NCBI RefSeq assembly: GCF_000153825.1
Contig: NZ_DS022299.1
Location: 2,196,869 to 2,260,868, forward strand
Source: Synechococcus sp. RS9916
GTDB lineage: Bacteria; Cyanobacteriota; Cyanobacteriia; PCC-6307; Cyanobiaceae
DNA length: 64,000 bases
Direction of reading: 5' to 3'
In this document: one piece after another, positions 11,846-60,780 of the stretch
How the letters are laid out: the number at the start of each line of letters is the position of its first letter
How positions within the stretch are numbered: the first letter of the stretch is position 1
Program-made: the position numbers and the translations under genes
The notes under the pieces: generated by a model
What the model was told of the DNA's origin: nothing
The model's database searches: none
The model's input: the letters and a program-made list of their open reading frames with translations, nothing else

Positions 11846-11902
11846 TTGCTTAATTCGTCTTTTGAATTGAAAGATTCTTGTCAGGCAGGAGATAAAGCTG
11901 GT

Positions 11903-39583: not shown

Positions 39584-39661
39584 GGGTTCGAGCGGTCTAA
39601 GGTCCAATGATCTGGAAATGGATCGCCTTGTGATCAGCAAGGTGGATCCCTGACGGTCTCC

Positions 39662-41479
39662 ATGCCCTTGCAAAGTCAGACCTGGAGCAATCTCCGTCAG
39701 CTGCTGCGTGAGTTGCCGAAGCGGCGCGTCCGCTTGCTGATCCTGGTTCTGCTGGCCTCCCTGGTGCAGGGCCTGCTGGACGTGTTTTTGGTGGCTCTGT
39801 TGGCCCGCCTTGTGGGTCTGTTGGCAGGTGCGCGACTGGAGGACTACTTGCCCGGGATCAAGGTCTTTGGCGGTGGTTTCCTTGATCAGTCGGGATGGCT
39901 TGTGGCGCTGCTAATCGCGTCCTTCTGGCTGGCGTCGGCGATTCGTTTTGTCGTTGCGTTGATGCAGAGCCTTCTCAGCGCTGAGGTTTGGAACGATCTG
40001 GTGAACAAGGTGTATGACAACCTCATGCGCCAGAAATACGAATTCTTTATTCGTCAGCGCACTGCCAATCTCTCTGAAAAGTTCAACCGAATTCTCAATA
40101 GCGTTTCTACTGGCGTCATTAGTCCGATTCTGCTGATTGCTGGAAATCTGGTTTCGGTTGCGTCGCTCCTGGTGGGCGTGGTGGTGGTGCTGGGGGTCAA
40201 AGCTTTGGCGGTGTTTGCGCTGATGTTGCTGGCCTATGTGATCTCCTCCAAGATCATTACCCCTTATCTCCGCCTTGCCACCAAGCAGCGCATTCGTTAC
40301 GGGCGTCGGATCAATTTGTTGTTGATGGAATCTCTGCGTTCGATGCGCGAGGTTCAGCTGTATTCCGCCGAGCAGTATTTCGTCTCCCGCTTTGCTCGCG
40401 ATGGGGTCATTGCCAAGCGTTACGACCGAATTGGTCGCTTGCTCCCCGATGTGCCTCGTCTGGTGATCGAACCAGCAGGGATCACGATTCTGTTCGTGGT
40501 GGGCATTGTTCCCGCCATGCTCAGTGGTGATTCGGAGGGCATCAAAAATGCCATCCCGGCGCTGTCAGCGGTGTTGGTGGCCCTGCTGAGGATTTCAGGT
40601 CCGTTGCAGTCGATGTTCCGCAGTATCAATCGCTTGCGGGGCGGCTTGCCAGAAATTGCCGATGCTTTGGAGTTGCTCAGCCTCAAGCCCGAGCGTTATC
40701 TCCTTGATTCGCCAGGAGTGCCCACGCCTGATGGCGTGATGCCGCGCCGCTATATCCAGCTGCAGGATGTGAGTTTCGCCTACGCCAGTGATGCCAAGCC
40801 CGTGATCAATGGCATCAACCTTTCCATTCCGATTGGGGCTCGCATTGCCCTGGTGGGGCGAACCGGCAGTGGAAAAACCACGCTGGCCCATTTGATTTTG
40901 GGATTGTTTCAGCCCACGCAAGGGGAGCTGTTGCTCGATGGCATTGAAGTATCCGATCAGGAAGTGCCGGCTTGGCAGGCCAACTGTGCGTTCGTTCCTC
41001 AGACCATCCGTCTGATTGATGGCAGCATTCGCGACAATGTGGCCTTCGGTTGTGACGGCGACTCCATTGATGATGACCAGGTGTGGGCTGCTTTAGAGGC
41101 GGCTCAATTTGATGAATACGTCGCGGGAATGACCTACGGCCTCTACACCATGATTGGAGAAAACGGCATCAAGCTGTCTGGTGGGCAGCGTCAACGTCTT
41201 TCTCTCGCCAGAGCCTTTTTCCGTGGGGCCAAGGTGTTGGTCTTGGATGAGGCCACAAGCGCTTTAGACAACAAGACTGAGCACGATGTGATGCAGGCTC
41301 TCGATATTGTTGGTCGCCGCTGCACCACGATTGTGATTGCTCACCGTCTCTCCACGGTGAAAAAGTGTGACCTGATTTATGAAATGGCCAACGGTGAAAT
41401 TATTGCCAGCGGCGATTTTCAGCAGTTGCAGGAACGTTCGCCCTCGTTCCGTGAGATGGCCCTGATCGAGGGCGACTGA
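39662..41479 (+). CDS. ABC exporter, permease fused to ATPase (MsbA-like)
   Basis: A half-transporter of 605 residues: six-helix export permease (about residues 20-330) followed by the nucleotide-binding domain, with Walker A GRTGSGKTT (about 398), signature LSGGQRQRLSLA (about 504), Walker B VLVLDEATSALD (about 526) and H-loop IAHRLSTV. By context it probably exports a lipid-linked glycan or polysaccharide. Bases 40021-40140 are 45% GC by hand count, lower than the flanking transferase genes, and the codon choice looks different, which may mean a separate origin. It is 8 bases upstream of the next gene. Confidence 0.93.
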   Translation: MPLQSQTWSNLRQLLRELPKRRVRLLILVLLASLVQGLLDVFLVALLARLVGLLAGARLEDYLPGIKVFGGGFLDQSGWLVALLIASFWLASAIRFVVALMQSLLSAEVWNDLVNKVYDNLMRQKYEFFIRQRTANLSEKFNRILNSVSTGVISPILLIAGNLVSVASLLVGVVVVLGVKALAVFALMLLAYVISSKIITPYLRLATKQRIRYGRRINLLLMESLRSMREVQLYSAEQYFVSRFARDGVIAKRYDRIGRLLPDVPRLVIEPAGITILFVVGIVPAMLSGDSEGIKNAIPALSAVLVALLRISGPLQSMFRSINRLRGGLPEIADALELLSLKPERYLLDSPGVPTPDGVMPRRYIQLQDVSFAYASDAKPVINGINLSIPIGARIALVGRTGSGKTTLAHLILGLFQPTQGELLLDGIEVSDQEVPAWQANCAFVPQTIRLIDGSIRDNVAFGCDGDSIDDDQVWAALEAAQFDEYVAGMTYGLYTMIGENGIKLSGGQRQRLSLARAFFRGAKVLVLDEATSALDNKTEHDVMQALDIVGRRCTTIVIAHRLSTVKKCDLIYEMANGEIIASGDFQQLQERSPSFREMALIEGD

Positions 41480-41486
41480 GGCGGCG

Positions 41487-43748
41487 ATGGCGGATTTTGT
41501 TGTGCTCGCCACCGCGGATTGGGACCATCCGCTCTGGACCAACAAACAGCACACGGCGCTGACTTTGGCCGCAGCGGGACACCGGGTGCTCTATGTGGAG
41601 TCCCTCGGGATTCGTCCGCCGCGGGTGGGTGCTGCCGATCGAACCCGAATTGTTCGGCGTCTGCGCCGCCTGCTGCAACTGCCTCGTCAGCGGCGTGAAC
41701 GACTCTGGGTGTGGTCACCTCCTGTGTTGCCCGGCGGCCACAGCGGAAAGGTGCTCCAGCTCAATCGCCGCCTTCTCCAGGGTGGGCTCGAGCTCGTTTG
41801 CCGTTGGCTCGGCTTCACCAATCCGATCCTCTGGACCTACAACCCGCTCACCACCCTCTATCTCGATCCAGAGAGCTACGCAGGCAGTGTTTATCACTGC
41901 GTTGATCGCATTCAGGATCAGCCGTGCATGCCTGTGGCGCGCATCGAAGCCAGTGAGCAAGAGCTCTCTCGGGTTGTGGATGTGGTGTTCGCCACGTCGC
42001 CCCAACTGCAGATCAGCCATCGCCAGTGGAATCACCACACCCTGCTGTTCGGGAACGTGGCGGATCACGGCCATTTCAGTCGCGCCCGCTTGGGGGATGA
42101 CATGGGGCCCTTGCGGTGCCCTGAGCCCCTTGACGCATTGCCCCGGCCAAGGTTGCTGTTCATGGGGGCGATCGATGCCTACAAGCTCGATCTGGCCTTG
42201 CTGCTTCAGTTGGCGCAGCGCAATCCTGCCTGGCGGTTTGTGCTGATCGGACCCGTGGGGGAGTGTGATCCCTCTACCGACGTGGCCGCGCTGATGGCCT
42301 GCCCAAATGTGGACTTGATGGGGCCTGTGGCCTATGGCGACCTGCCTGCCTGGCTGGCCCATGCCGATTTGGCGTTGTTGCCGTTGCAGGTGAACGGCTA
42401 CACCCGCCACATGTTCCCGATGAAGTTCTTCGAATACCTTTCGTCGGGACTGCCGGTGGTGGCCACGGCCATTCCCGCCTTGGAGGCCCACGCCGATGTG
42501 GCTTGGCTATGTCCGCCGGAGACTGAGGCGTTTGAGCAGGCGATTCAGGCTGCTCTAGTAGGGCAGGGCCCGAGCATGCAGCAGCGCTTGGGGCGGGCGG
42601 CGACCCAGACCTATGAGGCACGCACGGATTCAATGCTGGCCTATCTGGATCGGGTGGGTCTGCTTGCGGAGGCCGAGCGCAATCAACCGGATTCTTGTGG
42701 CGGGCAACCGTCGCTGCTCCAGCGTGCTGGTCTCTGGTTGCGGGGCCTCAGCAGTCGGGGGCTGGTGTGGATTAGTCACCGGCTGATGCGGGCCGGCCAC
42801 CCTCGTGCTGCTGTGGCGGTGCTTCAGGGGCTGGCAAAAAGCCGCTGGGGCGATTGCATCCTGCGGGGAGGGCTGGTGTTGCCGCTTGTGCGCTGCGGTG
42901 ACTACCGCCAGGCCCGATTGGTGATGGAACAGCTCTGGCAGGCCTATGGCCACGTGGGCGAACTCAAGCAGCTGTTGTTTCGTCGCGGCAATCGCCCGTC
43001 GGAGCGCAGTGAGCAGGTGTTGCTGTTCGAGGAACTGGTCACGAGCACGGTGCTTCCCCTGTATGCCCTCAACTACTGCCAGGTGGTGCTGGCCCATCGC
43101 TGTGTGGATGTGAAGGACAAAGTGCGCATGCGCCAGTCGGCGATGGCGATTGCCGCCATGGCAACCGCTCTAGAGCAGGATCCCGGCACGCTTTTTTGCT
43201 TGCGCTCGAATCGCCGCAACCGCAGCAAGCTGTTGGTGTCGTGTTACGCCACGCTGCTGCGTTTGCAGCTGGGGTTGCAGCAGTTTGATGCCCTGTCGGC
43301 TCTGGGTCTGCGTTGCCTGAGCTGGGCTGAGCAGTTGGATCTGAATGCGATTGATGCCGATACGTCGTATCGGCTGACGCGCAACATCCTGCGGGTGTTG
43401 TTGATCAACGTGTTGGAGGCTTGGACCGAGCGGGATCCTGCCCTGATGCAACGCACAGCTCGGGTGATCGAGCGCGTGCACCATCACTGCCATCGTGGCT
43501 TGTTTGACCAGCAATCGGCTCAGGAGAACCACCGCGGGTTTGCTGATGCTGTGCTGGCGCGGGTGCAGCGGTTGGAGCAGGCGCAGCTTCAGAGCGATCC
43601 AGAAGGCGCGTTTGAGGAGGCGCTGCCCAGCCTGATGCTGCTGATGCTCAAGAGTGAACGGGAGCTGGCCAGTGAAGCGATCCGCCAAGACCGTCTGACC
43701 AACGTGTTGCCTCTGTTCAGCCCCTATCTCGCTGGAGTTCCGTTGTGA
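41487..43748 (+). CDS. Glycosyltransferase with C-terminal helical extension (753 aa)
   Basis: The first half (about residues 1-395) is a GT-B glycosyltransferase: WDHPLWTNKQHTALTLAAAGHRVLYVES, a middle DRIQDQP, RPRLLFMGAIDAYKLDLALL, and the donor motif PMKFFEYLSSGLPVVATAIPALEAHAD. The second half (about 400-753) has no recognised domain, is helical, and its pattern (AAVAVLQGLAKSRWGDCILRGGLVLPLVRCGDYRQARLVMEQLWQAYG) looks like TPR- or SEL1-type repeats. It overlaps the following gene by 4 bases (GTGA). Such a two-part enzyme is unusual; the extension may hold a partner. Confidence 0.8.
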   Translation: MADFVVLATADWDHPLWTNKQHTALTLAAAGHRVLYVESLGIRPPRVGAADRTRIVRRLRRLLQLPRQRRERLWVWSPPVLPGGHSGKVLQLNRRLLQGGLELVCRWLGFTNPILWTYNPLTTLYLDPESYAGSVYHCVDRIQDQPCMPVARIEASEQELSRVVDVVFATSPQLQISHRQWNHHTLLFGNVADHGHFSRARLGDDMGPLRCPEPLDALPRPRLLFMGAIDAYKLDLALLLQLAQRNPAWRFVLIGPVGECDPSTDVAALMACPNVDLMGPVAYGDLPAWLAHADLALLPLQVNGYTRHMFPMKFFEYLSSGLPVVATAIPALEAHADVAWLCPPETEAFEQAIQAALVGQGPSMQQRLGRAATQTYEARTDSMLAYLDRVGLLAEAERNQPDSCGGQPSLLQRAGLWLRGLSSRGLVWISHRLMRAGHPRAAVAVLQGLAKSRWGDCILRGGLVLPLVRCGDYRQARLVMEQLWQAYGHVGELKQLLFRRGNRPSERSEQVLLFEELVTSTVLPLYALNYCQVVLAHRCVDVKDKVRMRQSAMAIAAMATALEQDPGTLFCLRSNRRNRSKLLVSCYATLLRLQLGLQQFDALSALGLRCLSWAEQLDLNAIDADTSYRLTRNILRVLLINVLEAWTERDPALMQRTARVIERVHHHCHRGLFDQQSAQENHRGFADAVLARVQRLEQAQLQSDPEGAFEEALPSLMLLMLKSERELASEAIRQDRLTNVLPLFSPYLAGVPL

Positions 43749-44923
43749 GTCCCCCGAAGCGAGTGGTGCTCTATATCGACAGCCTCAAGCTGGGAGGCGC
43801 CGAACGGGTCACCCTGACCTGGGCCCGCTGGCTCTACCAGGCGGGATGGCAGCCCATGGTGCTGACTCGTCAGCCCGTCAGCTGGGATTTCTATCCCGTT
43901 CCTCCAGATGTGGAGCGGGCTGTGGAGCCCGCTGATGTGTCTTGGATGCGGCGGTTGGGCCCGTTGGCGTTTCCCTTTCGGGTGTTGCGTCTGCAGCGCT
44001 GGCTGAATGACCAGAACGTGGACCTCGCCATTGGTGTGACCTCACTCCCGGCCATCAAGTTGCTGTTTGCTGCACGCCTCTTGGGAGTGCCGTGTGTGGT
44101 GTCGGAGCGCAATTATCCCCCGCTGAAGCGGATTGGCCGGATCTGGAGTGGGTTGCGCCGGCTCAGTTATCCCTGGGCTGCTCTCCACCTCGTGCAGACC
44201 CGCGCGGTCGGAACCTGGATGGCAGCCCATCTGGGCGCCCATCGACAGTTGTTGTTGCCTAACCCCGTGCAATGGCCTTTGGCCCGCTTTCATCCCAGCC
44301 TTGAGCCCAAGCACTGGCTGGCGCAACGGGGCTGTCAAGCCTCCGATCATGTGGTGTTAGCGGTAGGAACAAAAGCCGACCAGAAGGGTTTCGATCGACT
44401 GGTGCGCTGGTGGATTCCCCTTGCTCAGGCGGATGCTCGGCTGCAGTTAGTGATTGTGGGTCTCGATGAACGGCCTTATCACGGTCGGGATCAACAGGCC
44501 GAGCTGCGGGCGTTGCTGGTGGATCATCCTGAGCTCCAAGGCCGGCTGCAGTTCCCCGGCCGCGTGGGCAACCTGGCGGATTGGTATGCCCGAGCCCAGC
44601 TGTTTGTGCTCTCGTCGCGTTACGAGGGATTCCCCAATGTGCTGTTGGAGGCGATGGCTGCAGGTTGCTGTTGTGTGGCGGCCGATTGCCCTCAGGGGCC
44701 TGCCGACCTGATCCAAGACGGGGTCAACGGTCGTCTGCTTCCTGATACGGCTTCGGACTCGCAATGGCTGCAGGTGCTGGCGGAGTTGTTGGCGAATGGG
44801 GCAGAGCGGCAACGCCTGGCCGCTAACGCGGTGGAGGTGCGGGAGCTGTATGCCCCAGCAGCGTTGCAGCAGCGATTGATGCAAGCTCTTGAACGGGTGA
44901 TGCAGGAGGCGGCCGCGAACTGA
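43745..44923 (+). CDS. GT4 glycosyltransferase
   Basis: A typical 392-residue GT4 enzyme with GGAERVTLTWARWLYQAGW at the N-terminus, VVSERNYPP in the acceptor domain, a catalytic/donor loop VVLAVGTKADQKGFDRLVRWW and the signature FVLSSRYEGFPNVLLEAMAAGCCCVAADCPQGPAD. Starts at GTG 43745 in a GTGA overlap with the previous gene and ends one base before the next start, so it is tightly coupled in the operon. Resembles enzymes that add hexoses to capsular or O-antigen repeats; donor unknown. Confidence 0.92.
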   Translation: MSPPKRVVLYIDSLKLGGAERVTLTWARWLYQAGWQPMVLTRQPVSWDFYPVPPDVERAVEPADVSWMRRLGPLAFPFRVLRLQRWLNDQNVDLAIGVTSLPAIKLLFAARLLGVPCVVSERNYPPLKRIGRIWSGLRRLSYPWAALHLVQTRAVGTWMAAHLGAHRQLLLPNPVQWPLARFHPSLEPKHWLAQRGCQASDHVVLAVGTKADQKGFDRLVRWWIPLAQADARLQLVIVGLDERPYHGRDQQAELRALLVDHPELQGRLQFPGRVGNLADWYARAQLFVLSSRYEGFPNVLLEAMAAGCCCVAADCPQGPADLIQDGVNGRLLPDTASDSQWLQVLAELLANGAERQRLAANAVEVRELYAPAALQQRLMQALERVMQEAAAN

Positions 44924-44924
44924 G

Positions 44925-46202
44925 ATGCAGCACGCAGCACCTGAGCAAACCGATGATCTCTGGCTGGTCTTGCCTCACCTAGGGCCTGGTGGAGCCCAGA
45001 AAGTGGCGTTGCTGGCGGCCGGTTTTTTTATGGCCAAAGGCTGGCGCGTGCGCCTGGTGACGATGCTGCCGGGTCCGGCTCAGGCCCATGCCATTCCAGA
45101 GGGATTGCTGGTCACCGATCTCGCCCCTGCCGTGGATGCGCTCTGGAAGCGGGACCACTGGAACCGTTCGCTGTTGGCACGCGGTCGCCGCTTTCTTGCG
45201 CCGCAGCGACGGCTGCATCGCGCGCTGGCGCGTCTGGTGATGGGACCACTGGTGGGACTGTTGGAGCCGGTGCAGCCCGGCCCGCGTGACTGGCGCTCGC
45301 GTTTGCTCCGTTGGTGTGTGCAGGGCATTGACGGACCGCCCTCCTGGGAGCTGGAACGATTGCTTCAGTCCCATCGCCCCAGACGGGTGGTGTCGTTTCT
45401 GAGTCGCACCAACATGCGCATCTGCAGTGCCCTTTGGTGGCGGGATTGCCATCTCGTGGTTTCGGAACGCAATGACCTGCGCAAGCAGCAGTTGCCCTTC
45501 CCCTGGCCGCGCTTTCGCCGTCTGCTGTACCGCCGAGCGGATGTACTCACGGCGAATACAGCTGGTGTGATGGACAGCCTGGTGCCCTTGTTTCAGGCCC
45601 GTCAGCTGGCCCTGCTTCCCAACCCGCTGCCGATGCCGGTGGTGCCTGCTGCGGTGGGGTCGGCAGGCGATCGCCAGGGGTTTGTGACCGTGGCGCGGCT
45701 GGTGCCGCAAAAGGGCATTGATGTGCTGATTCGTGCCCTAGCTCAAAGTGCTGGTGCGGCGCGCAACTGGACGCTGACCCTGGTGGGGGATGGGCCGGAA
45801 CGGGCGGCGCTGGAGCACCAAGTGCAGCAGGTTGGTTTGCAGGAGCGGGTGCACTTTCTTGGCTTTTGCACGGATCCCCAGACGTTTCTGCTGAGGTCCG
45901 GAGTGTTTGTCTTGCCCTCCCGCTTCGAGGGCATGCCCAATGCCTTGTTGGAAGCGATGGCCGCGGGCCTGGCGGTGGTGGTGACGGATGCGTCGCCCGG
46001 GCCGCTGGAGGTGGTGGAGAACGGTGTCAGCGGGTTGGTGGTGCCCAGCGATGATCCGTTTGCTTTGGCCGAAGCCCTTGATCGTTTGGCGCTCGACCCT
46101 GCGTTGCGGGAGCGCTTGGGTGCTGCGGCGCGAGACACCCTGCGTCAGTTGGATTGGCCTGTGGTCGGTCCGATCTGGGAGTCGTTGGTGGATCAGCCAT
46201 GA
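44925..46202 (+). CDS. GT4 glycosyltransferase
   Basis: A 425-residue GT4 enzyme related to its upstream neighbour: LPHLGPGGAQKVALLAAGFF, VVSERNDLRKQQLPFPWPRF, GFVTVARLVPQKGIDVLIRALA and FVLPSRFEGMPNALLEAMAAGLAVVVTDASPGPLEVV. The N-terminal half is longer and contains extra arginine-rich segments. Its last bases overlap the next ATG (ATGA at 46199-46202). The paired GT4 genes may have arisen by tandem duplication. Confidence 0.92.
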   Translation: MQHAAPEQTDDLWLVLPHLGPGGAQKVALLAAGFFMAKGWRVRLVTMLPGPAQAHAIPEGLLVTDLAPAVDALWKRDHWNRSLLARGRRFLAPQRRLHRALARLVMGPLVGLLEPVQPGPRDWRSRLLRWCVQGIDGPPSWELERLLQSHRPRRVVSFLSRTNMRICSALWWRDCHLVVSERNDLRKQQLPFPWPRFRRLLYRRADVLTANTAGVMDSLVPLFQARQLALLPNPLPMPVVPAAVGSAGDRQGFVTVARLVPQKGIDVLIRALAQSAGAARNWTLTLVGDGPERAALEHQVQQVGLQERVHFLGFCTDPQTFLLRSGVFVLPSRFEGMPNALLEAMAAGLAVVVTDASPGPLEVVENGVSGLVVPSDDPFALAEALDRLALDPALRERLGAAARDTLRQLDWPVVGPIWESLVDQP

Positions 46203-47317
46203 CCCTGCGACGGTTGCTGGTGTTTGCTCCCACCCGCCGGGCGGCATCGGAAACCTTTGTGCGCGCCAATTTGGCGGGGTTGCCGTTTGAGGTGCAGGCC
46301 TACTTCGGTGATGAACGACCTTGGAACCAACCGGCACGCTTGGCCTATGGCCTTGCGGTGGTGTTGAGCAAGGCCTGCACGCGTCTAGGGCTGTTGCGTC
46401 TGGCGGGCTGGCCGGCTGCGGTGGTAGCGCGGGGGTTGATTGCTCGCCATCGGCCCGATCTGGTGTTGGCGGAGTTTGGCTTCCATGCGGTGCGGGTGAT
46501 GGAGGTGGCCCCGGTGATGGCGGTGCCCTTGGTGGTGCACTTTCGTGGCTCCGATCTCTCTGCCCAGTGCAAATTGGGCGTGTTGCGCGGCCGGTATCGC
46601 CGCTTGATGGGGTTGGCGGCCGGGTTGATCTGCAAATCCAAGCCCATGGCCCAGACCTTGCAGACACTGGGTGCGCCTGCGGATCGCATCTTGATCAGTG
46701 CATCCGGAGCAAATGCCCAGTTGTTCCATGGCAGTGCGCCGGCAGCGGCGCCTCCGGTTTGTCTGGCGGTGGGACGGTTTGTGGCGAAGAAAGGACCGTT
46801 GCAGACGATTCGAGCCTTCGCAGCCCAGCCCCAGGGTCAGCTCTGGATGGTTGGGGAGGGGCCCTTGTTGGCGGAGGCAAAAGCGTTGGCAGAGGATCTG
46901 GATCTGGGGGAGCGGATTCGTTTCCTGGGGGTGTGCAGTCAGGTTGAAGTGGCGGCGCTCATGCGGCAGGTGCGGGTGTTCGTGCAGCATTCCCTGGTGG
47001 CTGCTGATGGCGATAGTGAGGGCAATCCTGTGGCGGTGATGGAAGCGCAGCTGAGTGGTTTGCCCGTGGTGGCCACGCGCCATGCCGGCATCCCGGAAGT
47101 GGTGATCGATGGTCAGACCGGACTGCTGGTGGCGGAAGGGGATGTGCAGGGAATGGCCGCGGCGATGGAACGGCTGCTGCAGGATCCAGCGTTGTGCTCC
47201 CGGTTCGGAGCCGCAGGCCGTTGCCATGTGGAGCAAGGATTCACCCTGGACAAGCACTTGGCCGATCTCAGCCGCTTCCTGATCCAGACCCATGCGCAGG
47301 CGGTTAAGGGCGCATGA
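46199..47317 (+). CDS. GT4 glycosyltransferase
   Basis: A 372-residue GT4 enzyme with a shorter N-terminal region (APTRRAASETFVRANLAGL), VLAEFGFHAVRVM, VHFRGSDLSAQCKL, AVGRFVAKKGPLQTIRAFA and EGNPVAVMEAQLSGLPVVATRHAGIPEVVIDGQTGLL. This pattern fits colanic-acid-type transferases (WcaL/WcaC-like). I chose ATG 46199, in an ATGA overlap with the previous gene; the longer frame starting 46154 lies in that gene. It is followed in an ATGA overlap by a sulfotransferase. Confidence 0.92.
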   Translation: MTLRRLLVFAPTRRAASETFVRANLAGLPFEVQAYFGDERPWNQPARLAYGLAVVLSKACTRLGLLRLAGWPAAVVARGLIARHRPDLVLAEFGFHAVRVMEVAPVMAVPLVVHFRGSDLSAQCKLGVLRGRYRRLMGLAAGLICKSKPMAQTLQTLGAPADRILISASGANAQLFHGSAPAAAPPVCLAVGRFVAKKGPLQTIRAFAAQPQGQLWMVGEGPLLAEAKALAEDLDLGERIRFLGVCSQVEVAALMRQVRVFVQHSLVAADGDSEGNPVAVMEAQLSGLPVVATRHAGIPEVVIDGQTGLLVAEGDVQGMAAAMERLLQDPALCSRFGAAGRCHVEQGFTLDKHLADLSRFLIQTHAQAVKGA

Positions 47318-48177
47318 GTGGCATGAAACAACGGTTGTTGTTGATTCGGGGGCTGGGCCACAGCGGCACCACGATCCTCGATCTCGCCCTTGGGGCCCAT
47401 CCCAAGATCACCGGTCTTGGTGAAGCGGTGCGCTTGCTGGAGAAACCGGCTGTCCAAGACAGCCACCGTGGCCCGGCCCAGTTGCGTGGTGAGCTGCGTC
47501 ATCAGCGCCGGTGCACCTGCGGCCTGGTGGCCGATGCCTGTCCGGTGTGGGGGCCGATCTTGCGCTGGCTGCCGTCTCACGACGAGCAACCGCTTCCCGA
47601 CAAACTTAAGCGTCTGCTGGCAGCCCTGAAGCCTCCAGAGGAGGGCTCCTCCATCAACTCCTGGGTGGTGGAGTCGTATCAAGACGATTTCGTGCTGCCC
47701 TTCCTGGAGGATCCGGCCTTGGACATCCGCGTGCTCCATCTCACCCGTGACGTGCGCAGTTGGGTGCATTCCCGTTCCCGCGACGGACGCCAACGGGGGC
47801 GTTGGCTGCCAGGACTCCAGCCGTTGTTGCGCTGGTGGCGTCTCAGTGCACGGCACGAACGGCAGCTGCAGTGTTGCGGCAAGCCGGTGTTCCGGCTCGG
47901 CTACGAGGAGCTGGCCCTGCGGCCTGAGCAGACTCTGCGCCGTCTGTGTGACTGGTTGGAGCTGGAGTTCGACCCGGCGATGCTGGCGCCTGTGGCCCAG
48001 TCGGGTAGCCACATTCTCTCGGGCAATCGGGTGCGCTTCGATGCGGAGAAAGGGGCGGCCATTCATTACGACGCTGCTTGGATGACCCATGGGGCCGGGA
48101 TCGCCCAGCTCGCCTTGGCCTGGCCGCCGCTGGCGGCCCTCAATCGGCGTCTGGTTTACTCCGCTTCTCGCCGGTAG
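47314..48177 (+). CDS. PAPS-dependent sulfotransferase, cysteine-motif type
   Basis: Transfers sulfate from PAPS to a sugar or lipid hydroxyl. The 287-residue protein begins with the 5'-phosphosulfate loop LLLIRGLGHSGTTILDLALGAHP and has the 3'-phosphate motif HLTRDVRSWVHSRSRDG near residue 144. A cysteine set, RRCTCGLVADACPVW (C-x-C-x6-C-P), follows about 50 residues after the loop. It closes the glycosyltransferase operon, starting in an ATGA overlap, so the operon product is probably sulfated. It meets a large membrane-protein gene tail to tail with a 22-base overlap. Confidence 0.88.
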   Translation: MSGMKQRLLLIRGLGHSGTTILDLALGAHPKITGLGEAVRLLEKPAVQDSHRGPAQLRGELRHQRRCTCGLVADACPVWGPILRWLPSHDEQPLPDKLKRLLAALKPPEEGSSINSWVVESYQDDFVLPFLEDPALDIRVLHLTRDVRSWVHSRSRDGRQRGRWLPGLQPLLRWWRLSARHERQLQCCGKPVFRLGYEELALRPEQTLRRLCDWLELEFDPAMLAPVAQSGSHILSGNRVRFDAEKGAAIHYDAAWMTHGAGIAQLALAWPPLAALNRRLVYSASRR

Positions 48178-49940
48178 ATGTGGCCGTTGCTGACCGCTGG
48201 ATCGAAGTCATAGATCAGCCGATAGGCGCTCAGATCAATGCCATATTTTTTGAGCTTTTTGCCCGAATCGAGATCCAGTAGCAGGTCTCCTGGCTGCGCT
48301 TGGTAAGCATCGCCCCGGTCGATGCCATCGATGATCTCGGCCTGGTGGGTGTCTGGGTCGAGGTAGATCAGGCGGTCGTAGGGGAGGGAGCGCAGGTAAT
48401 CGGAGTGTTTGAACCACGACTTCGAGAGAATCAGATTCACCGGTTCCCCCCGGCGCTTCATTTCCAGTGCCAGTGTTTGGGCGGCATCAAAGGTGGCGCG
48501 CCAGGAGTGTTGGGTGTTGCGAATGGAGCTGAAGCGCTCCTGGAAGTGATGGGCGAAGCGGTGCTCTACGGCCACAATCGACAGGCTGAGTCCCACGCCA
48601 ATGGCCCCGGTGATCCTGCGGCTGGAGCGGTTGAGGAGCCAGGGGCTGATCGCGACGGCCCACACCACCAACATGTCGAGCACCGCCACCCAATTCACGG
48701 GAAGCGCCATGTAGCTCGTGCTTTTGAATCCCACCAGTGCCCAAAGGGCCAGGGCATAGGCGAGGGCTCCGAGATTGAGACCGTCGATCACTGAGAACGA
48801 AAAGTCGTTGCGCTGGCGGCACCACTGGGTCAGACGCACCACGATGAACAGCAGCACCACCACCGTGCGGATGTCGAGCTCGAAGGTCGAGAAGCGCAGG
48901 CTGGCGTCGTAGCGCTGATCGCCGAGGTAAAGGCTGGGCAATAGGCTGAGCCAGGTGGCGCTCGCCAGAAAGAACGGCACCAAGCAGAGCAGATTTCGTT
49001 CCAGCTGGTTGTGCTGGTTCCATTGGTTTGGAGCCCGGCTGAGTAGAGACGCCAGGGCGGGCACCGCGAACCAGAGGATCGCCGTGTCTTTGAGGAAGCT
49101 GCCCAGGAGTGCCCAGATCAATGCGAGGAGAGCGGCCCGGTGGTCTCCTGTCTCGCGAGATCGAAGCCAGTGGAAGGTGAACAGCGCCAGCAGCAGGCTC
49201 AGCAGCCGTTCGCTGTAGATGAACTGGAAATAGTTGTAAGCCGCGGAGCTCGTGAACAGGTAAAGGATGCAACTGATCAACAGCAGTGCTGGAGCCTTGG
49301 CGGCTTGAGGCTTGGTGAGCCTGAGGCTTTGCTGCACCACGGCCACGCTCAGGCCGATGGTGGCCACCAGCTCCGCTGCACTGATCAGGGCCCAGACCTT
49401 GGGATAGGGCGTGAACCAACTGAGGATGTGGAGGTCTTGGTGGGAGAGGGGAAAGAAGCGGAAGTCGTTTCGGCCCATGGCTTCACCGATGAAGCTGGGC
49501 CGGGGGCCGAAGTTGTCGAGGAGTAGTCCGTTGTGGATGTCGTCGAACCAGGTGACGATTTCCTTGTAAAACCAGCTGCTCTCGCTCACCATCAGCAGCG
49601 CGTAGACGGTCAGCAACCCGCAGGCGATCGGGTGGCGGCGGATGAACGTCCAGGTTTGGTGGAGCAAGCTCTTGTTCTGACCCGATGCCTGAGCTGGAGC
49701 AGGGAGCCGTTGGATGGCCAGCACCAGCACACCGATCAGCAGAAGCATCACCATCAACCAGAGCTGGTGGGCCAGGGCGTTGTAGTGCTCCAGCAGTGCC
49801 GATCCCTCAGGCAGCAGGGGGTCGGGCAGTTGCTGGCGGTGTTGCACCAGCCAGGTGCTCAGGCCCAGACCGAGCAGCAGAATCCCGCTCGAGAGGCCTG
49901 CCAGCCAGGCCATCAGCCGGTTGATCCTGGCCATCGTCAT
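48156..49940 (-). CDS. Large polytopic membrane protein, copy A of three paralogues (594 aa)
   Basis: A protein I cannot assign to a known family. About ten membrane segments: two near the N-terminus (about 11-32 and 60-76), one at 104-120, then several after residue 185. Between the third and fourth lies an invariant block (residues 156-190), E-x-M-x-R-N-D-x-R-F-F-P-L-x-H-Q-D-L-H and SWFTPYPKVWALISAAEL. The last ~110 residues are soluble, with LPYDRLIYLDPD and QPGDLLLDLD. Copy B is just upstream (ATGA overlap) and copy C is at 61688-63457. The hydrophilic loop suggests a GT-C-like or polymerase-like glycan enzyme, which is inference. Confidence 0.75.
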   Translation of the reverse strand: MTMARINRLMAWLAGLSSGILLLGLGLSTWLVQHRQQLPDPLLPEGSALLEHYNALAHQLWLMVMLLLIGVLVLAIQRLPAPAQASGQNKSLLHQTWTFIRRHPIACGLLTVYALLMVSESSWFYKEIVTWFDDIHNGLLLDNFGPRPSFIGEAMGRNDFRFFPLSHQDLHILSWFTPYPKVWALISAAELVATIGLSVAVVQQSLRLTKPQAAKAPALLLISCILYLFTSSAAYNYFQFIYSERLLSLLLALFTFHWLRSRETGDHRAALLALIWALLGSFLKDTAILWFAVPALASLLSRAPNQWNQHNQLERNLLCLVPFFLASATWLSLLPSLYLGDQRYDASLRFSTFELDIRTVVVLLFIVVRLTQWCRQRNDFSFSVIDGLNLGALAYALALWALVGFKSTSYMALPVNWVAVLDMLVVWAVAISPWLLNRSSRRITGAIGVGLSLSIVAVEHRFAHHFQERFSSIRNTQHSWRATFDAAQTLALEMKRRGEPVNLILSKSWFKHSDYLRSLPYDRLIYLDPDTHQAEIIDGIDRGDAYQAQPGDLLLDLDSGKKLKKYGIDLSAYRLIYDFDPAVSNGHIYRREAE

Positions 49941-51772
49941 GGCTGAATCCGGTAGACGCGGCCGTTCTCCTGGCCGTCGTTGTCTCGGTAGAGCAGTTGG
50001 GTGGGCCAGCGCTCCAGCAGGGGTTGGAGGGTGCTGGCGTCTTTGTCGATCGTGAACAGAAGATCGCCTGCCTGGGGTGTGTAGAGCTCGCCTTTGCCTG
50101 TTCCTTCCTCGACGCTGAAGCGGTTGTGTTGCTGGTCAAATTCGATTAGGCGGTCAAAGCGAAGCCGGCCCAGGTGGCGTTTGGCCGAGAACCACGATTG
50201 TTTGCTGTAGATCAGGTTGATGGCTTCGCCTTGGGTACGGATTGGAGCGCTGATGGCATCAATGGCTTGGTACGCCTCCAGCCATGACTGCTGACGCACC
50301 TTGATGGTGCTCACGTTGGCGGCGAAGTTTGGAGGCTGCAGATGGTCGATGCCGATGGTCCCCAGCACGACCGCGGACCCCACAGCACCAGCTGTTCGGG
50401 CTGAGCTGTGGCGCTCCAGTGCAGGGCTGATCCAGCAGGCCCAGACGAAACCCAGATCCAGCACCGTCACCCACTGCACGGGCAGGGTCAGGTATTTGTG
50501 CGACTCGAAGCCAATCAGCACCAGCAGGCCGGCGGCGTAGGTGAGTGCAGCCAGGTTGAGACCATCCAGCAGGTTGATGCGGCTGCGGCGCACGCTGATG
50601 GCTGCGGCGCGAATCAGACAAAAGCCGATCAGAAACCAGAAGCGCCAGTCGGGAGCAAATAGGAACCCCTTGTTTTTGTTGTAGGAGCCCTTGTTGGCAA
50701 AGGCGCTGGGCAGCAAGGAGAGCACCACATAAGCCAGCAGAAAGATCAGGGCTAGGGAGCAGAGCCAGAGCTCGAGGCGGTAAGCCTCTGCCCATTCCGA
50801 TCGGGAGCTGTTATCCCAGCTGGGACGACCTTCCACCAACCCCAGGCTGCCAGCGACCAGCATCACCGCGGGGGGCACCACGAACAGCACCACGGCGATG
50901 TCTTTGATGAAGATGCCGATCAGGCCGAACAAGAGAGCGGCATAAAACGACGCCTTGTCGCGGTGCTGGTGATGGTGCAGATAGGCGCCGCAGTAGAGGG
51001 CAAACAGGAACGTGAGGAAGCGTTCGCAATAGGAGAACTGAAAGAAGGCCATCCCGGTGGCGGGATGGAACAACAGCAGCAAGCTGGTGATCAGCAGCAG
51101 CGCTGGAATCTGGCTGCGGCCACTGAGCCTGCGCACAAACCGGGCACTCACCACCACGATGGTGAACAGCTCAGCGGCGCTCACCAGCATCCACACCTTC
51201 ACGTAGGCCGTGAACCAACTGAGGATGTGAAGATCCTGGTGGGCGAGGGGAAAGAAGCGGTAGTCGTCCCGCCGCATCGTTTCGCGCAGAAAGTCCTGAC
51301 GGAACGAGAAGTTATTGAGCAGGTGCTCGCCTGGAATGCCTCTGTACCAGCCCACCAACTCGGGATACATCCAGTTGGTGCCATGCACCATTGCCACTGT
51401 GTACCCGGCGAACAGGGCCACTACCAGGGGATGGGCACGGGCAAAGCGCAGCAGCGGATTGCCCGGGGTTGCCTGTTGCTGTGTCGGCTGCTGTTGGCGT
51501 TGTTCGTTTTGGGCCCGGCGGATCAGCACCAGCAGGGTGAGCACGCTCAGGGCAAGCAGCGCTAGAAACAGGTCGTGGGAGGTGGCCTGGTACTGCCTGA
51601 GCAGGGTTTTGCCGGCACGCACCTCCGGGGAGTGCAACTGGTCGCGGTGCTGCAGCAGCCAGATCCAGCAGCCCAGCCCCAGACCGATCAGCACACTGGC
51701 GACGGCATCGATCCAGGCCAGCAGGGGAATGGGTCTGTTGTGGCCTTTTGGTTCGCTCAGCTGCGTGCTCAT
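49937..51772 (-). CDS. Large polytopic membrane protein, copy B (611 aa)
   Basis: Paralogue of the neighbouring copy A, sharing the same plan: two N-terminal membrane helices, the block RETMRRDDYRFFPLAHQDLHILSW and YVKVWMLVSAAELF (about residues 155-195), further membrane segments, and a soluble tail with LRFDRLIEFDQQ and TPQAGDLLFTID. It precedes copy A with a four-base overlap, so both are made from one message. The degree of divergence between copies suggests an old duplication. It starts at ATG 51772, 22 bases after the end of kdsA. Confidence 0.75.
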   Translation of the reverse strand: MSTQLSEPKGHNRPIPLLAWIDAVASVLIGLGLGCWIWLLQHRDQLHSPEVRAGKTLLRQYQATSHDLFLALLALSVLTLLVLIRRAQNEQRQQQPTQQQATPGNPLLRFARAHPLVVALFAGYTVAMVHGTNWMYPELVGWYRGIPGEHLLNNFSFRQDFLRETMRRDDYRFFPLAHQDLHILSWFTAYVKVWMLVSAAELFTIVVVSARFVRRLSGRSQIPALLLITSLLLLFHPATGMAFFQFSYCERFLTFLFALYCGAYLHHHQHRDKASFYAALLFGLIGIFIKDIAVVLFVVPPAVMLVAGSLGLVEGRPSWDNSSRSEWAEAYRLELWLCSLALIFLLAYVVLSLLPSAFANKGSYNKNKGFLFAPDWRFWFLIGFCLIRAAAISVRRSRINLLDGLNLAALTYAAGLLVLIGFESHKYLTLPVQWVTVLDLGFVWACWISPALERHSSARTAGAVGSAVVLGTIGIDHLQPPNFAANVSTIKVRQQSWLEAYQAIDAISAPIRTQGEAINLIYSKQSWFSAKRHLGRLRFDRLIEFDQQHNRFSVEEGTGKGELYTPQAGDLLFTIDKDASTLQPLLERWPTQLLYRDNDGQENGRVYRIQP

Positions 51773-51794: not shown

Positions 51795-52706
<912 letters not shown>

Positions 52707-52727
52707 TCACAGCCGAGATGCAGGCGA

Positions 52728-53432
52728 ATGGCCGTCGCTCCGATCCCGATTTTCATCGGATACGACCCGCGGGAGCGGGCGGCCACCAATGTGTTGATCG
52801 ACAGCCTTTATCAACACAGTTCTGCGCCCCTGGCGATCACGCCGCTGGTGACGCCCCAATTGGAGGCCCAGGGCTTGTACCGGCGCGAACGTGATCCGAA
52901 ACAGAGCACGGCCTTCTCCTTTACCCGCTTTCTCGTGCCCCACCTGATGGGCTATCAGGGCTGGGCGCTGTTCATGGATTGCGACATGCTCTGCCGCGCT
53001 GACATCCAAGCGCTGTGGGATCAGCGCGATGACCGCTATGGCGCCATGTGCGTGCAGCATGAGCATGTGCCGGGTGAGACGGTGAAATTCCTGGGGGAAG
53101 TACAGAGCGCCTATCCCAAGAAAAACTGGAGTTCGCTGATGCTGCTCAATTGCAGCCGCTGCACCAAACTCACCGTCGATTACGTCAACACCGCCACCGG
53201 CTTGGAGCTGCATCGCTTTCACTGGCTGGAGGGCGACCATGAGATCGGCGCCATCCAGGGGGGCTGGAATCATCTGGTGGATGTGCAGGCTCCGCCCGAG
53301 ACGCAGCAGGCTTCACCGATGCTGCATTGGACGCTCGGTGGGCCATGGTTCCGGGAGCAGCGCACCATGGGTGGTCCTTTGGCGGCGGAATGGTTTTCGG
53401 CCCGCGATGACGCCATGAAGTTGTGGGACTGA
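52728..53432 (+). CDS. DxD glycosyltransferase (GT8-like)
   Basis: A 234-residue GT-A-type transferase. The metal-binding DxD is in ALFMDCDMLCRADI (about residues 82-94); the start PIPIFIGYDPRERAATNVLIDSL and the phrase GWNHLVDVQA ... PMLHWTLGGPWF (about 184-208) recall family 8 or small eukaryote-like transferases that add a sugar to a protein or core. It overlaps kdsB by one base (TGATG), which suggests a Kdo-containing or Kdo-linked glycan. I cannot name the donor. Confidence 0.78.
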   Translation: MAVAPIPIFIGYDPRERAATNVLIDSLYQHSSAPLAITPLVTPQLEAQGLYRRERDPKQSTAFSFTRFLVPHLMGYQGWALFMDCDMLCRADIQALWDQRDDRYGAMCVQHEHVPGETVKFLGEVQSAYPKKNWSSLMLLNCSRCTKLTVDYVNTATGLELHRFHWLEGDHEIGAIQGGWNHLVDVQAPPETQQASPMLHWTLGGPWFREQRTMGGPLAAEWFSARDDAMKLWD

Positions 53433-54250
53433 TGACGATTCAGCGTTCTGTGGTGGCGGTGCCGGCCCGCCTGGCGTCCTCCCGTCTGCCAGACAAGGTG
53501 CTGGCGGAGATCGGCGGCAAGCCGATGATTCAGCGGGTGCTGGAGCAATGCGCCAAGGCCCAGGGGCCGGCGGCGGTGGTGTTGTGCACCGACAGTCCCC
53601 GCTTGCAGCAGTTGGCGGAGAGCTGGGGTTTCCCGGTGTTGATGACTTCGGAGTCCTGCAGTTCCGGCAGTGAACGGATTGCCTCGGTGGCCGATCAGCT
53701 GGTGGCCCGGGCCTGGAGTGAGGCTGCACAGGGCTGGGAGTCAGCCGTTCGCGCCCAGCGCCTGGCCAGCACGGCGGTGATCAATGTGCAGGGGGACCAG
53801 CCATTCCTTGAGCCGGATGTGGTCACCGCGATGGTGGAGGAATTTGGTCGGCGTGATCCTGTGCCCGCAGTGGTGACACCGGTGTATCGGCTCCAGCCCG
53901 AGACCATCCACAACCCGGCGGTGGTGAAGACGCTGTTGGCCCATGACGGACGGGCGCTCTATTTCTCCCGCTCCGCCATTCCCCATGTGCGGGATGTGGA
54001 CCCTGCTGCATGGCATCAGCACACGGATTACTGGGGCCATGTGGGCATGTATGGCTTCCGCGGCGATGTGCTCGCAGCCTGGGATCAGCTCCCGGCGTCT
54101 CCGCTGGAGGATCTTGAGCGGCTGGAACAGTTGCGTCTGATTGAGGCGGGTCACACGATTGCGACCTTCCAGGTGGAGGGCACGTCCCTCTCGGTGGATA
54201 CCGCCGAGCAGCTGGAGCAGGCCCGCCAGATGGCGCTGGCTCAGGCCTGA
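53432..54250 (+). CDS. kdsB: CMP-Kdo synthetase
   Basis: Activates Kdo with CTP. The 272-residue protein begins VVAVPARLASSRLPDKVLAEIGGKPMIQRVLEQC, the KdsB signature, and has NVQGDQPFLEPDVV, ALYFSRSAIPHVRD and GMYGFRGDVLAAW. The ATG overlaps the stop of the DxD transferase. It converges on the sulfotransferase gene with a 10-base overlap. Together with kdsA, C and D the whole route to CMP-Kdo is present; a Kdo transferase (waaA) is not in the window. Confidence 0.95.
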   Translation: MTIQRSVVAVPARLASSRLPDKVLAEIGGKPMIQRVLEQCAKAQGPAAVVLCTDSPRLQQLAESWGFPVLMTSESCSSGSERIASVADQLVARAWSEAAQGWESAVRAQRLASTAVINVQGDQPFLEPDVVTAMVEEFGRRDPVPAVVTPVYRLQPETIHNPAVVKTLLAHDGRALYFSRSAIPHVRDVDPAAWHQHTDYWGHVGMYGFRGDVLAAWDQLPASPLEDLERLEQLRLIEAGHTIATFQVEGTSLSVDTAEQLEQARQMALAQA

Positions 54251-55119
54251 GACCAGCGGCTGGTGGTAGGCCACAGCTGTTGAAGGTCTAGGCCGGGCAG
54301 TGCCTGCTGTGCCCGCTTGAGATCGTCCGCGTGTTGGCGACCCATCTCTGCCAGCAGGTCATCGGGAATCACCGTCTTGGTGGCGCTCACGTTCACCTTC
54401 TCGCCCCAGGCGGGTGCCTGGTACGGGACCCCAAGGAAGTGGCAGAGCTCTGCGTAGGTGGGTTGGGTAAACAGGGTTTCAAACAGTCCTACAAAGCAGT
54501 GCTCCAAGCCAAAGGCCTGATCGAGCGCATCGAGGGTCTGGCCGTAGTCGCTGCGCAGGCCGCGCCCTTTGGCCACCCGTTTGCGCAGGGTGGCCACTTC
54601 CGTGGCGGCATCCCGCAGCCCCTGCTTGCGCAGTTTCATCCGCTGGCTGGAGATCAGCCGTTCGATCGGATCGCGCATCAGAAACACCGGTTTCACGGGG
54701 GTGCCGCGGACCTGGAAGCTGGTGTTGATGCCCTTCAGGGTGTCGGCGCTGAGCAGCGCATAGGAGGGGGTGATGTCTCCCGTGAGCTGGATCTGTGCGC
54801 CCCGCAGACGCGGACGGGTCAGCAGCCACTGGAAATACTCCGCGTAATGCTCGGGGTTGTGGATGAACCACTGGCGCAGCCAGGTGCGCGGTTGAACCCA
54901 GGTGCGCGGTTGCAGAGGCTTGCAATTGAGCTGCCGGAAGCGCTTCAGCTCGGCGATGGTGCGGGCGTCGTGAACGTGATATTCCTTCAGGCAGCCGAAA
55001 TCGGCGTCAGGCCGCGTGTGCAGCTGCTGATGTAGCCAGGAAGTTCCTGCTTTCTGGGCCCCGACCCCCAGCAGGAATACGCCTGGAGGATTGGCATTGG
55101 AATCGAGGGACTTAGTCAT
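54241..55119 (-). CDS. PAPS-dependent sulfotransferase
   Basis: A sulfotransferase of 292 residues of a different subtype: the 5'-phosphosulfate loop GVGAQKAGTSWLHQQL near residue 20, the 3'-phosphate motif FLMRDPIERLISSQRMKLR (about 153-171), and an acidic TGDITPSYALL in between. Unlike the other two sulfotransferases in the window it lacks the C-x-C...CP motif. A duplicated hexapeptide, QPRTWVQPRTWL, marks an 18-bp tandem repeat at 54880-54912. It overlaps kdsC by 8 bases on the same strand, so kdsD-kdsC-sulfotransferase is probably one operon. Confidence 0.87.
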   Translation of the reverse strand: MTKSLDSNANPPGVFLLGVGAQKAGTSWLHQQLHTRPDADFGCLKEYHVHDARTIAELKRFRQLNCKPLQPRTWVQPRTWLRQWFIHNPEHYAEYFQWLLTRPRLRGAQIQLTGDITPSYALLSADTLKGINTSFQVRGTPVKPVFLMRDPIERLISSQRMKLRKQGLRDAATEVATLRKRVAKGRGLRSDYGQTLDALDQAFGLEHCFVGLFETLFTQPTYAELCHFLGVPYQAPAWGEKVNVSATKTVIPDDLLAEMGRQHADDLKRAQQALPGLDLQQLWPTTSRWSQA

Positions 55120-55687
55120 TGCGGTCTCTCCAGCCGTTGCGGCTGAGGTCGGTCCAGAGCCCTCGAGCTTTCAGGATGTGTTCCGCCAGCTCGCGGACGG
55201 CGCCATGGCCACCCCGCCGGAGCAGCACCCCGTCGGCCTGCTGGCGTACAGCAGGGCAGGCATCGGCTGGGGTGATCAGCAGCCTCACCTGATGGTGCAC
55301 GGCCAGGTCGTTGAGGTCGTCGCCGATGAAGGCGGTGCTGGATGGTGTCGCACCCACCTGCTGTTGGAGCCGGGTCAGTGCAGTGGGTTTGTCTTTGATG
55401 CCCACCAGGCAGTACTCAATGTCCAATTGCCGGGCTCGTACTTCGGTGGCTCCTCCTTTGCCGCCGCTCAGGAAGGCCAGCTGCAGGCCAGCCTGTTGCA
55501 GCAGGCGGATGCCCAAACCATCGCGCACGTCAAAGCGTTTCTGCAGGAGCCCATTGGGGTCGAACCAGAGGCCGCCGTCGGTGAGCACGCCATCCACATC
55601 CAGCACCAACAAGTCGATCTGGCGCAACGCGGGCCGTTGGCGTCGCCATTGGAGTGCATTGAGCAGACGTTTCATCAGGCCAGTCAT
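55112..55687 (-). CDS. kdsC: Kdo-8-phosphate phosphatase
   Basis: A small HAD-family phosphatase that gives free Kdo. The 191-residue protein has LLVLDVDGVLTDGGLWFDPNG (motif I with both catalytic Asp), FDVRDGLGIRLLQQAGLQLAFLSGG (motif II) and FIGDDLNDLAVHHQVRL (motif IV), without a cap domain, as in KdsC tetramers. Start TGATG overlaps the kdsD stop by one base. It is followed by a sulfotransferase gene. Confidence 0.94.
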   Translation of the reverse strand: MTGLMKRLLNALQWRRQRPALRQIDLLVLDVDGVLTDGGLWFDPNGLLQKRFDVRDGLGIRLLQQAGLQLAFLSGGKGGATEVRARQLDIEYCLVGIKDKPTALTRLQQQVGATPSSTAFIGDDLNDLAVHHQVRLLITPADACPAVRQQADGVLLRRGGHGAVRELAEHILKARGLWTDLSRNGWRDRND

Positions 55688-56673
55688 CAGGCCAGACCTG
55701 CCTGGACCAGGTCATGGAGTCGCAGTAGTCCGTCCAGCTCCCCAGCGGCATTCACCACGGGCAGCACGGAAATCGGTTTGCGCCGGTTGTGTTCCATCCG
55801 TTGGATCGCATCCACGGCCATCAGCTCTGCCGTCACGGTGATTGGATCCGCCGTCATCAGGTCTTTGGCCTGCAACGATGCCCAGCCTTCAGGGTTTTGG
55901 TCACGCAGGGCTCGCCTGAGATCGCCATCGGTGATCAGGCCCACAAGACGGCCTGCATGCTCTGGGTCCTCCACCCAACCACTACCGATCGCTCCCTGGG
56001 TGAGTTGGCTGATCACATCCGGCAGGGGCGTCTCGGGCCTGAGAGCTGGCAGCTGCTGGGCCGGCACCATCAGGTCGGCCACGGTCATGGTGAGCTGTTT
56101 GCCCAGTGATCCGGCCGGGTGATTGATGGCGAAATCAGCCGGGGAGATGCCGCGCCGTTCCATCCAGACCGCCGCCAGGGCATCGCCAATGGCCATAGCC
56201 ACTGCTGTGCTGGCGGTGGGGGCGAGGTTGAGGGGGCAGACCTCCCGGTCGACGGAGGCTTCCAGCACCACATCACTGCCCAGAGCTAAAGAGGATTCCG
56301 CCCGCCCTACCAGGGCAATGCGCGCGGTGCCCCGGCGTTTGAGGTGGGGCAGCACCTCGAGCAGCTCGCTCGTTTCGCCACTGTTGGAGAGCAGCAGGCA
56401 GACGTCGTCAGGAGCTACCACGCCCAGATCCCCGTGCAGGGCATCGAGGGGATTGAGGTAGAGGGCCATCAGGCCGATGGAGGAAAAGGTGGCGGCGATC
56501 TTGCGGGCCACGATGCCGCTTTTGCCCACGCCGGTGATCACCAGCTTGGCTTTGCGATCCGCGCAGCGTTCCAGGAGGGCCAGGGCTCCTTCCACCTGAT
56601 CAACGCTTAGACGATCAGCCGCAGCAGCGATGGCGGCCGCTTCCTCCTGCAGGCAGCGGGTGAGTGCAGACAA
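55687..56673 (-). CDS. kdsD: Arabinose-5-phosphate isomerase
   Basis: Makes arabinose-5-phosphate, the precursor of Kdo, from ribulose-5-phosphate. An N-terminal SIS domain (about 20-185) has VITGVGKSGIVARKIAATFSS and LLLSNSGETSELLEVLPHL with the conserved DALHGDLG; two CBS domains follow (about 200-328). I chose TTG 56673 (LSALTRCLQEEAAAI, 328 residues, the usual length); no ATG or GTG fits without a long non-conserved extension. It is the first gene of a kdsD-kdsC-sulfotransferase run. Confidence 0.93.
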   Translation of the reverse strand: MSALTRCLQEEAAAIAAAADRLSVDQVEGALALLERCADRKAKLVITGVGKSGIVARKIAATFSSIGLMALYLNPLDALHGDLGVVAPDDVCLLLSNSGETSELLEVLPHLKRRGTARIALVGRAESSLALGSDVVLEASVDREVCPLNLAPTASTAVAMAIGDALAAVWMERRGISPADFAINHPAGSLGKQLTMTVADLMVPAQQLPALRPETPLPDVISQLTQGAIGSGWVEDPEHAGRLVGLITDGDLRRALRDQNPEGWASLQAKDLMTADPITVTAELMAVDAIQRMEHNRRKPISVLPVVNAAGELDGLLRLHDLVQAGLA

Positions 56674-56749
56674 GGCAGATGGCGTCGCGCGTGTGCCGAT
56701 TCTGGGCCCTGGCGCTGCTCGTAAGCTTTTCCAAAGGACAGGCAGGTTC

Positions 56750-56947
56750 GTGAACAAGGCGCTAAAGGCTCTGGTGCTGGTGGCGGAACGCCTTGGCGGC
56801 CCTGGCTTTGTGCAGATGCTGCAGCAAATGCAACTTCCACGTTTTCGCTTCTCGTTCTTTGTTGGGGAGTACTTCGAAGTGGGTGTCGGCAAAGATCTGG
56901 ACTACAAACGTTCCAGCGATCACTGGAAGGTGTGGGTCCGCAGCTGA
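56750..56947 (+). CDS. Small hypothetical protein (65 aa)
   Basis: A short frame starting at GTG 56750, 76 bases from the divergent kdsD start. The product, NKALKALVLVAERLGGPGFVQMLQQMQLPRFRFSFFVGEYFEVGVGKDLDYKR..., is soluble with a helical start and aromatic-rich middle; there is no known family. Its TGA is directly followed by the ATG of the glycosyltransferase gene at 56948, so it is translated just upstream of it. It is rated plausible because its composition looks coding and its ends fit both neighbours. Confidence 0.55.
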   Translation: MNKALKALVLVAERLGGPGFVQMLQQMQLPRFRFSFFVGEYFEVGVGKDLDYKRSSDHWKVWVRS

Positions 56948-60778: not shown

Positions 60779-60780
60779 CC

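Follow-up and report, generated by a model that had tools for sequence, protein, structure and literature searches.

The analysed window, a stretch of 64,000 nucleotides from Synechococcus sp. RS9916, contains three genes for large membrane proteins of one family, called here copies A, B and C, within a glycan locus (Table 1). The initial annotation had placed all three at 48156-51772, an interval that holds copies B and A (overlapping by 4 bp), whereas copy C lies separately at 61688-63457. Its reading as three full-length paralogous ORFs of 594, 611 and 589 residues was confirmed by end-to-end alignment, with pairwise identities of 36-41% over the whole length. A search of the 2.66-Mb genome retrieved these three copies only. 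Between orthologues of related genomes dN/dS is 0.14-0.22, and A, B and C are thus true paralogues under purifying selection; the full-length homologues in many genomes, together with these dN/dS values, exclude a chance origin of the family.

Table 1. Coordinates of the genes, motifs and candidate residues discussed in the text (positions in the window unless another contig is named)
Feature	Position	Strand	Details
Copy A (P0002), 611 aa	49937-51772	-	Membrane protein with predicted GT-C fold
Copy A architecture (residues)			Extra TM helices 17-45, 52-94; TM1 106-129; EL1 130-190; TM2-TM11; C-terminal alpha/beta domain 478-611
Copy B (P0001), 594 aa	48156-49940	-	Architecture as in copy A
Copy C (P0003), 589 aa	61688-63457	-	Third paralogue
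Conserved block, copy A EL1, residues 164-202	51167-51283	-	E164, R172, D180, H182, K192
Conserved block, copy B EL1, residues 153-191	49368-49484	-	
Conserved block, copy C EL1, residues 156-194	62876-62992	-	Ala for first Arg
E138, copy A	51359-51361	-	Acidic, just after TM1; candidate catalytic base; 34 Glu, 5 Asp of 39
E127, copy B	49560-49562	-	Corresponds to E138 of copy A
E130, copy C	63068-63070	-	Corresponds to E138 of copy A
E250, copy A	51023-51025	-	YxER, start of TM4; candidate equivalent of ArnT D158; 39/39
K290, copy A	50903-50905	-	EL3; candidate equivalent of ArnT K203; 39/39
GtrB, polyprenyl-phosphate glycosyltransferase	34896-35849	+	Proposed donor synthase; phrog_841 E 6.5e-98
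GtrA_DPMS fused to YdjC	35821-37212	-	Proposed flippase and donor deacetylase; Pfam GtrA 1.2e-9, YdjC 2.3e-41
Glycan assembly genes	38501-48177	+	Proposed acceptor builder; order conserved in related loci
GT4 genes	38501, 41487, 43745, 44925, 46154	+	
ABC exporter	39662	+	
Sulfotransferase SulfoT1	47314-48177	+	
Second and third sulfotransferases	54241-55119, 60739-61671		
kdsA	51795-52646	-	DAHP_synth_1 1.5e-69; directly upstream of copy A (22 bp)
kdsA, kdsB, kdsC, kdsD-like	51795-56892		Kdo synthesis
Second GT-C-like membrane protein	59339-60778	+	GT87 E 0.0098 (below cut-off); WSDE motif after TM1
Thiohalocapsa family gene (contig L041)	7908-9713		
Thiohalocapsa GtrA (L041)	9741-10199		
Thiohalocapsa GtrB (L041)	10208-11203		
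Thiohalocapsa YdjC (L041)	11196-12059		

The motifs RFFPLxHQDLHxLSWF and KVWxLxSAxEL, together with GDLL in the tail, are found in A, B and C, as first described. The preceding stretch E-x-M-x-R-(N/D)-x-x-R holds for A and B, whereas copy C reads ETMRANSFR. Similarly, the block is invariant only in part: among 39 distinct homologues (copy A numbering), E164, R172, P175, L176, D180 and W186 are present in all, whereas H178, Q179 and H182 are retained in 36, 37 and 35 of them, respectively.

Copies A and B apparently form an operon with kdsA; the promoter scan found no promoter, terminator-like sites delimited no clear transcription unit and Rfam gave no match. In nearly all Synechococcus loci, the family pair directly ends the GT4/ABC/sulfotransferase cluster. 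In the window, kdsA, kdsB, kdsC, a kdsD-like gene, two more sulfotransferases and the GT-C-like protein at 59339 lie beyond the pair. This last protein is conserved at the corresponding locus in other strains, and its sequence is unrelated to that of the A/B/C family. The three sulfotransferases of this single locus suggest that the surface glycan is sulfated. The lipopolysaccharide (LPS) of two marine Synechococcus strains was reported to consist mostly of glucose, to contain some glucosamine and to lack Kdo and heptose (PMC4515613), a composition that does not account for the presence of the kds genes.

The copies gave no acceptable match in Pfam, NCBIfam or PHROGs at E-values up to 1, and the family profile retrieved nothing from the PDB sequences. 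The Pfam search included the ArnT/PMT_2 domains (PF13231, PF02366; no match at E 1), GT87 (PF09594) and DUF2079 (PF09852). Profile-profile comparisons with sets of DUF2079, PMT_2 (by hhalign, three members from nearby genomes) and the GT-C-like protein at 59339 were not significant, with alignments of only 3-5 rows, and the 22-residue block used alone, a query too short for this purpose, matched nothing. The description as an unrecognised family therefore holds for the four collections searched: the kind of protein is known (GT-C), and the sequence family is new in that it is absent from Pfam, NCBIfam, PHROGs and the PDB sequences.

The family is sparsely distributed. Within a draw of 201 genomes (59 genera) from the same taxonomic family, 13 genomes in four genera carry it, and eighteen loci with a family gene were gathered in the species collection; the named relatives are marine Synechococcus, among them WH7803, which has two family genes (L035). 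In a tree of 36 members, A, B and C fall in separate groups, and a further group comprises copies adjoining Iso_dh-GtrB in other strains. Outside the cyanobacteria, one family gene is present in Thiohalocapsa, a purple bacterium unrelated to Synechococcus, and a search of 210 genomes of its order retrieved no further relative of this gene. No relative was found in the phage and plasmid collections or among viral contigs. The phylum draw gave one further match of interest (E 1.7e-8), a distant, frameshifted relative from a different family of cyanobacteria (G346, contig L060, 1000-2800) that may lead to a wider superfamily; a weak match in the cyanobacterium G380 looked spurious, as it runs antisense inside the gene of a large soluble protein, and was discarded. 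Some copies are decaying, as shown by in-frame stops in one genome (G075, contig L095, 13151-14962), and in another (G193, L027/L029) the third family copy is split in two. Four contigs filed under Rhizobiaceae, Gammaproteobacteria and Planctomycetaceae MAGs are probably misbinned: on three of them (L033, L034, L036) there are neighbouring genes from the glycan locus of Synechococcus; the fourth (L046), 3 kb in length, bears a gene that the tree places among Synechococcus copies.

The AlphaFold2 models of copy A (pLDDT 84.2, pTM 0.86) and copy B (pLDDT 83.8, pTM 0.86) support a GT-C fold. In Foldseek searches of the PDB, the best matches of the copy A model were ArnT (E 9e-4), OST and PMT, with E-values that are modest on their own; in VIA-align, the same model matched yeast STT3 (Z 16.3), Pmt2 (16.1) and ArnT (14.5). 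For copy B, the best match was Pmt2 (6p25_B, Z 18.2), with ArnT at 16.5, and 42 GT-C entries spanned Z 18.2-10.9 before the first unrelated chain appeared at Z 5.1. The highest-ranking fold matches include STT3, PglB and AglB, and the top structure match in BFVD is an entry without a name (Q684B0, E 5.6e-5). GT-C enzymes were thus the only good matches of both models; the GT-C fold is characterised by 7-13 TM helices and an EL1 domain. The aligned part starts at about residue 107 in A and 95 in B; helices one and two are for the most part additional to the fold. With the N-terminus inside and the helices taken from the model, the cytoplasmic loops of 25 sequences are all net positive, and those on the periplasmic side have a net charge that is close to zero or negative; the C-terminal domain has a positive net charge and was left out of this rule. 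This loop-charge topology places the conserved block in EL1, the large extracytoplasmic loop between TM1 and TM2 and the first loop of the GT-C module on the periplasmic side. The block is also the least certain stretch of both models, with pLDDT of about 50-55 or lower, and below 50 over much of it in copy A.

GT-C enzymes carry their catalytic base after TM1, in the first periplasmic loop (PMC11127046; PMC12041525). In ArnT, the corresponding sites are D55 after TM1, D158 before TM4, K203 after TM5 and an acidic metal/phosphate site in EL4 (PMC7801869). In our family, E138 was set against ArnT D55 and PMT D77; the GT-C base is usually Asp, and this position is acidic in all 39 homologues but mostly Glu, which is unusual. 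By the start-residue offsets of the fold alignments, which are arithmetic on alignment ranges rather than a residue alignment, ArnT D55 falls at about residue 137 of copy A, next to E138, and D92 of Pmt2, which we take to be its base, at about 139, on the other side of it. D375 of copy A, kept in 38 of 39 homologues, matches the place of the EL4 acidic site. Together, the topology and the post-TM1 acid, EL2 Glu, EL3 Lys and EL4 Asp appear to repeat the active-site plan of ArnT and PMT. The suggestion that the first large loop is GT-C-like and that these proteins may be glycosyltransferases therefore finds support in two models, the PDB fold searches, the topology and this comparison by position.

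The gene linkage points to a possible source of sugar. An independent case is a 79-kb Thiohalocapsa contig on which the family gene stands in one uninterrupted row with GtrA, GtrB and YdjC; the aroA-like and cytidylate-kinase-like genes nearby are in keeping with a gammaproteobacterial chromosome. The two parts of a Gtr-type system, GtrB and GtrA, are hence linked to the family in both settings, adjacent in this contig and in the same region of the window. A GtrA-YdjC match is present in 12 of the 13 family-positive genomes and in 37 of the 188 negatives (Fisher p 1.5e-7, uncorrected for relatedness); the single positive genome without it is 74% complete. In the 12 genomes having both, the family gene closest to GtrA-YdjC lies at a distance of 2.5-13.5 kb. 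In most Synechococcus strains, the GT-C genes lie 9-26 kb from GtrA-YdjC, much closer to kdsA and the GT4 cluster. GtrA-YdjC and GtrB are also found in many genomes devoid of the family, and thus serve other enzymes too. The fused form was matched in 49 of the 201 genomes, mostly without the family, GtrA and YdjC being fused in picocyanobacteria and separate neighbours in Thiohalocapsa. In two loci of family-negative genomes (L093, L094), DUF2079 membrane proteins lie beside GtrB and GtrA-YdjC, and might be further enzymes that draw on this donor.

From these observations, we consider it likely that A, B and C are GT-C glycosyltransferases acting as the last periplasmic enzyme of a Gtr-type three-component system that decorates a surface glycan. 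GtrB would load a sugar onto polyprenyl phosphate on the cytoplasmic side, the YdjC domain would possibly deacetylate an N-acetylhexosamine before flipping, and the GtrA part of the fusion would flip the lipid-linked sugar. At the outer membrane face, by analogy with the GT-C superfamily, the GT-C enzyme would take this lipid-phosphate sugar, with E138 (or D180/E164 of the block) as the putative base deprotonating the acceptor hydroxyl. The sugar would then become a side group of the surface glycan that the adjacent GT4/ABC/Kdo/sulfotransferase cluster is proposed to assemble, and the paralogues may differ in acceptor or linkage. The analysis itself shows the sequence family and its conservation, the fold of the models, the topology, the gene linkage and the optional presence of the genes. 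The joint working of GtrB, GtrA and the GT-C enzymes is proposed from their neighbourhood, and catalysis, donor and acceptor are likewise predictions.

Known systems offer partial parallels. ArnT (PDB 5ezm/5f15) has the same combination of a GT-C fold and a C-terminal periplasmic domain, together with the acid after TM1, the acid before TM4, the Lys after TM5 and a polyprenyl-phosphate sugar donor, as proposed for A, B and C. In contrast to ArnT, with which no sequence similarity was detected, the copies have mostly Glu at the base, another EL1 signature and two extra N-terminal TM helices, and they are not in a lipid A modification operon. PMT provides the best single fold match of copy B, but it gave no sequence match and A, B and C belong to a bacterial glycan locus. 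The Gtr O-antigen systems (GtrA, GtrB and a serotype-specific Gtr; GtcA/GtlA/GtlB; GT136) similarly combine a synthase, a flippase and a strain-variable GT-C part; here, however, GtrA is fused to YdjC, the genes do not form one operon in Synechococcus, and the copies belong to another sequence family, as far as compared (Pfam, NCBIfam, PHROGs, PDB sequences).

The nature of the donor is more debatable. The transferred sugar could be a free hexosamine (galactosamine or glucosamine), GtrB making polyprenyl-P-HexNAc that YdjC would deacetylate before flipping by GtrA and transfer by the GT-C enzyme, a scheme that we regard as plausible but somewhat short of an even chance. It would resemble the lipid A galactosamine modification of Francisella and Acinetobacter, in which the YdjC protein NaxD removes the acetyl group from UndP-GalNAc ahead of its transfer to lipid A (PMC11279074), and it agrees with the association of GtrA with YdjC and with the conserved YdjC metal residues (ADD, H223, H301/303/305 and H419, compared with the Thiohalocapsa YdjC). 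However, the window GtrB is closest to the UndP-glucose synthase, as it matches the structure of Synechocystis GtrB (sll0501) with an E-value of 1.9e-82, and this best-studied cyanobacterial GtrB makes UndP-glucose (PMC4728340). Lipid-linked glucose needs no deacetylase, so a glucose donor would leave YdjC without a role. Marine Synechococcus lipid A is reported to be without phosphate, unlike the NaxD setting. The reported LPS composition, with glucose and some glucosamine (PMC4515613), fits either donor.

Could the GT-C enzymes act instead on a whole oligosaccharide, as an oligosaccharyltransferase, polymerase or ligase for the GT4-built glycan flipped by the ABC exporter at 39662? The position of the pair at the end of the cluster and the fold matches with STT3, PglB and AglB would be in line with such a role, which we consider unlikely: the single-sugar enzymes PMT and ArnT match as well as STT3, and the Thiohalocapsa gene sits with GtrA and GtrB rather than with an ABC exporter. 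Furthermore, the family is optional. Three genomes (G141, G061, G162) retain GtrB, GtrA-YdjC, the GT4/ABC cluster, SulfoT1 and kdsA without any family gene; in G141 SulfoT1 and kdsA are separated by about 20 bp with no gene between them, and in G061 and G162 only a second sulfotransferase occupies this place. The glycan cluster of G112 is also present without the family. The family is therefore accessory and dispensable for completing the glycan, and a role in adding side groups is favoured over one in polymerising or ligating the backbone; the polymerase function proposed in the initial annotation is consequently not favoured.

Tandem family pairs are present in many strains, and GT-C heterodimers are among the matched PDB entries, so the copies might be catalytically dead scaffolds or obligate pairs with one catalyst, like Pmt1-Pmt2 or EmbA-EmbB. 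We judge this improbable, as a single copy is found in genus g5 and Thiohalocapsa and the candidate active-site residues are all retained in A, B and C. Finally, a polytopic transporter or glycan flippase, suggested by the many TM helices and the absence of a family assignment, was rejected on fold evidence as highly improbable, since no transporter fold approaches the GT-C scores (unrelated chains start at Z 5.1 for copy B) and most invariant charged residues are on periplasmic loops, as in GT-C enzymes.

The reading of A, B and C as decorating GT-C glycosyltransferases would thus add a family to a kind of enzyme that is hard to find by sequence, one kept in a group of abundant ocean cyanobacteria with no Pfam or NCBIfam entry. 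It puts forward candidates for the last step in decorating the surface glycan, along with a donor synthase, a flippase and a deacetylase, and allows the strains bearing the modification to be predicted; its value is that of a useful, testable enzyme set rather than of a new principle. More speculatively, and with a fairly low chance of being right in full, this Glu-base GT-C family and GtrA-YdjC may add positively charged free hexosamines to a sulfated, Kdo-associated surface glycan of marine Synechococcus, in strain-specific cassettes possibly selected by phages or grazers. Cyanophages and grazers probably make contact with the cells through surface glycans, and these strain-variable genes may therefore be candidates for explaining differences in host range.
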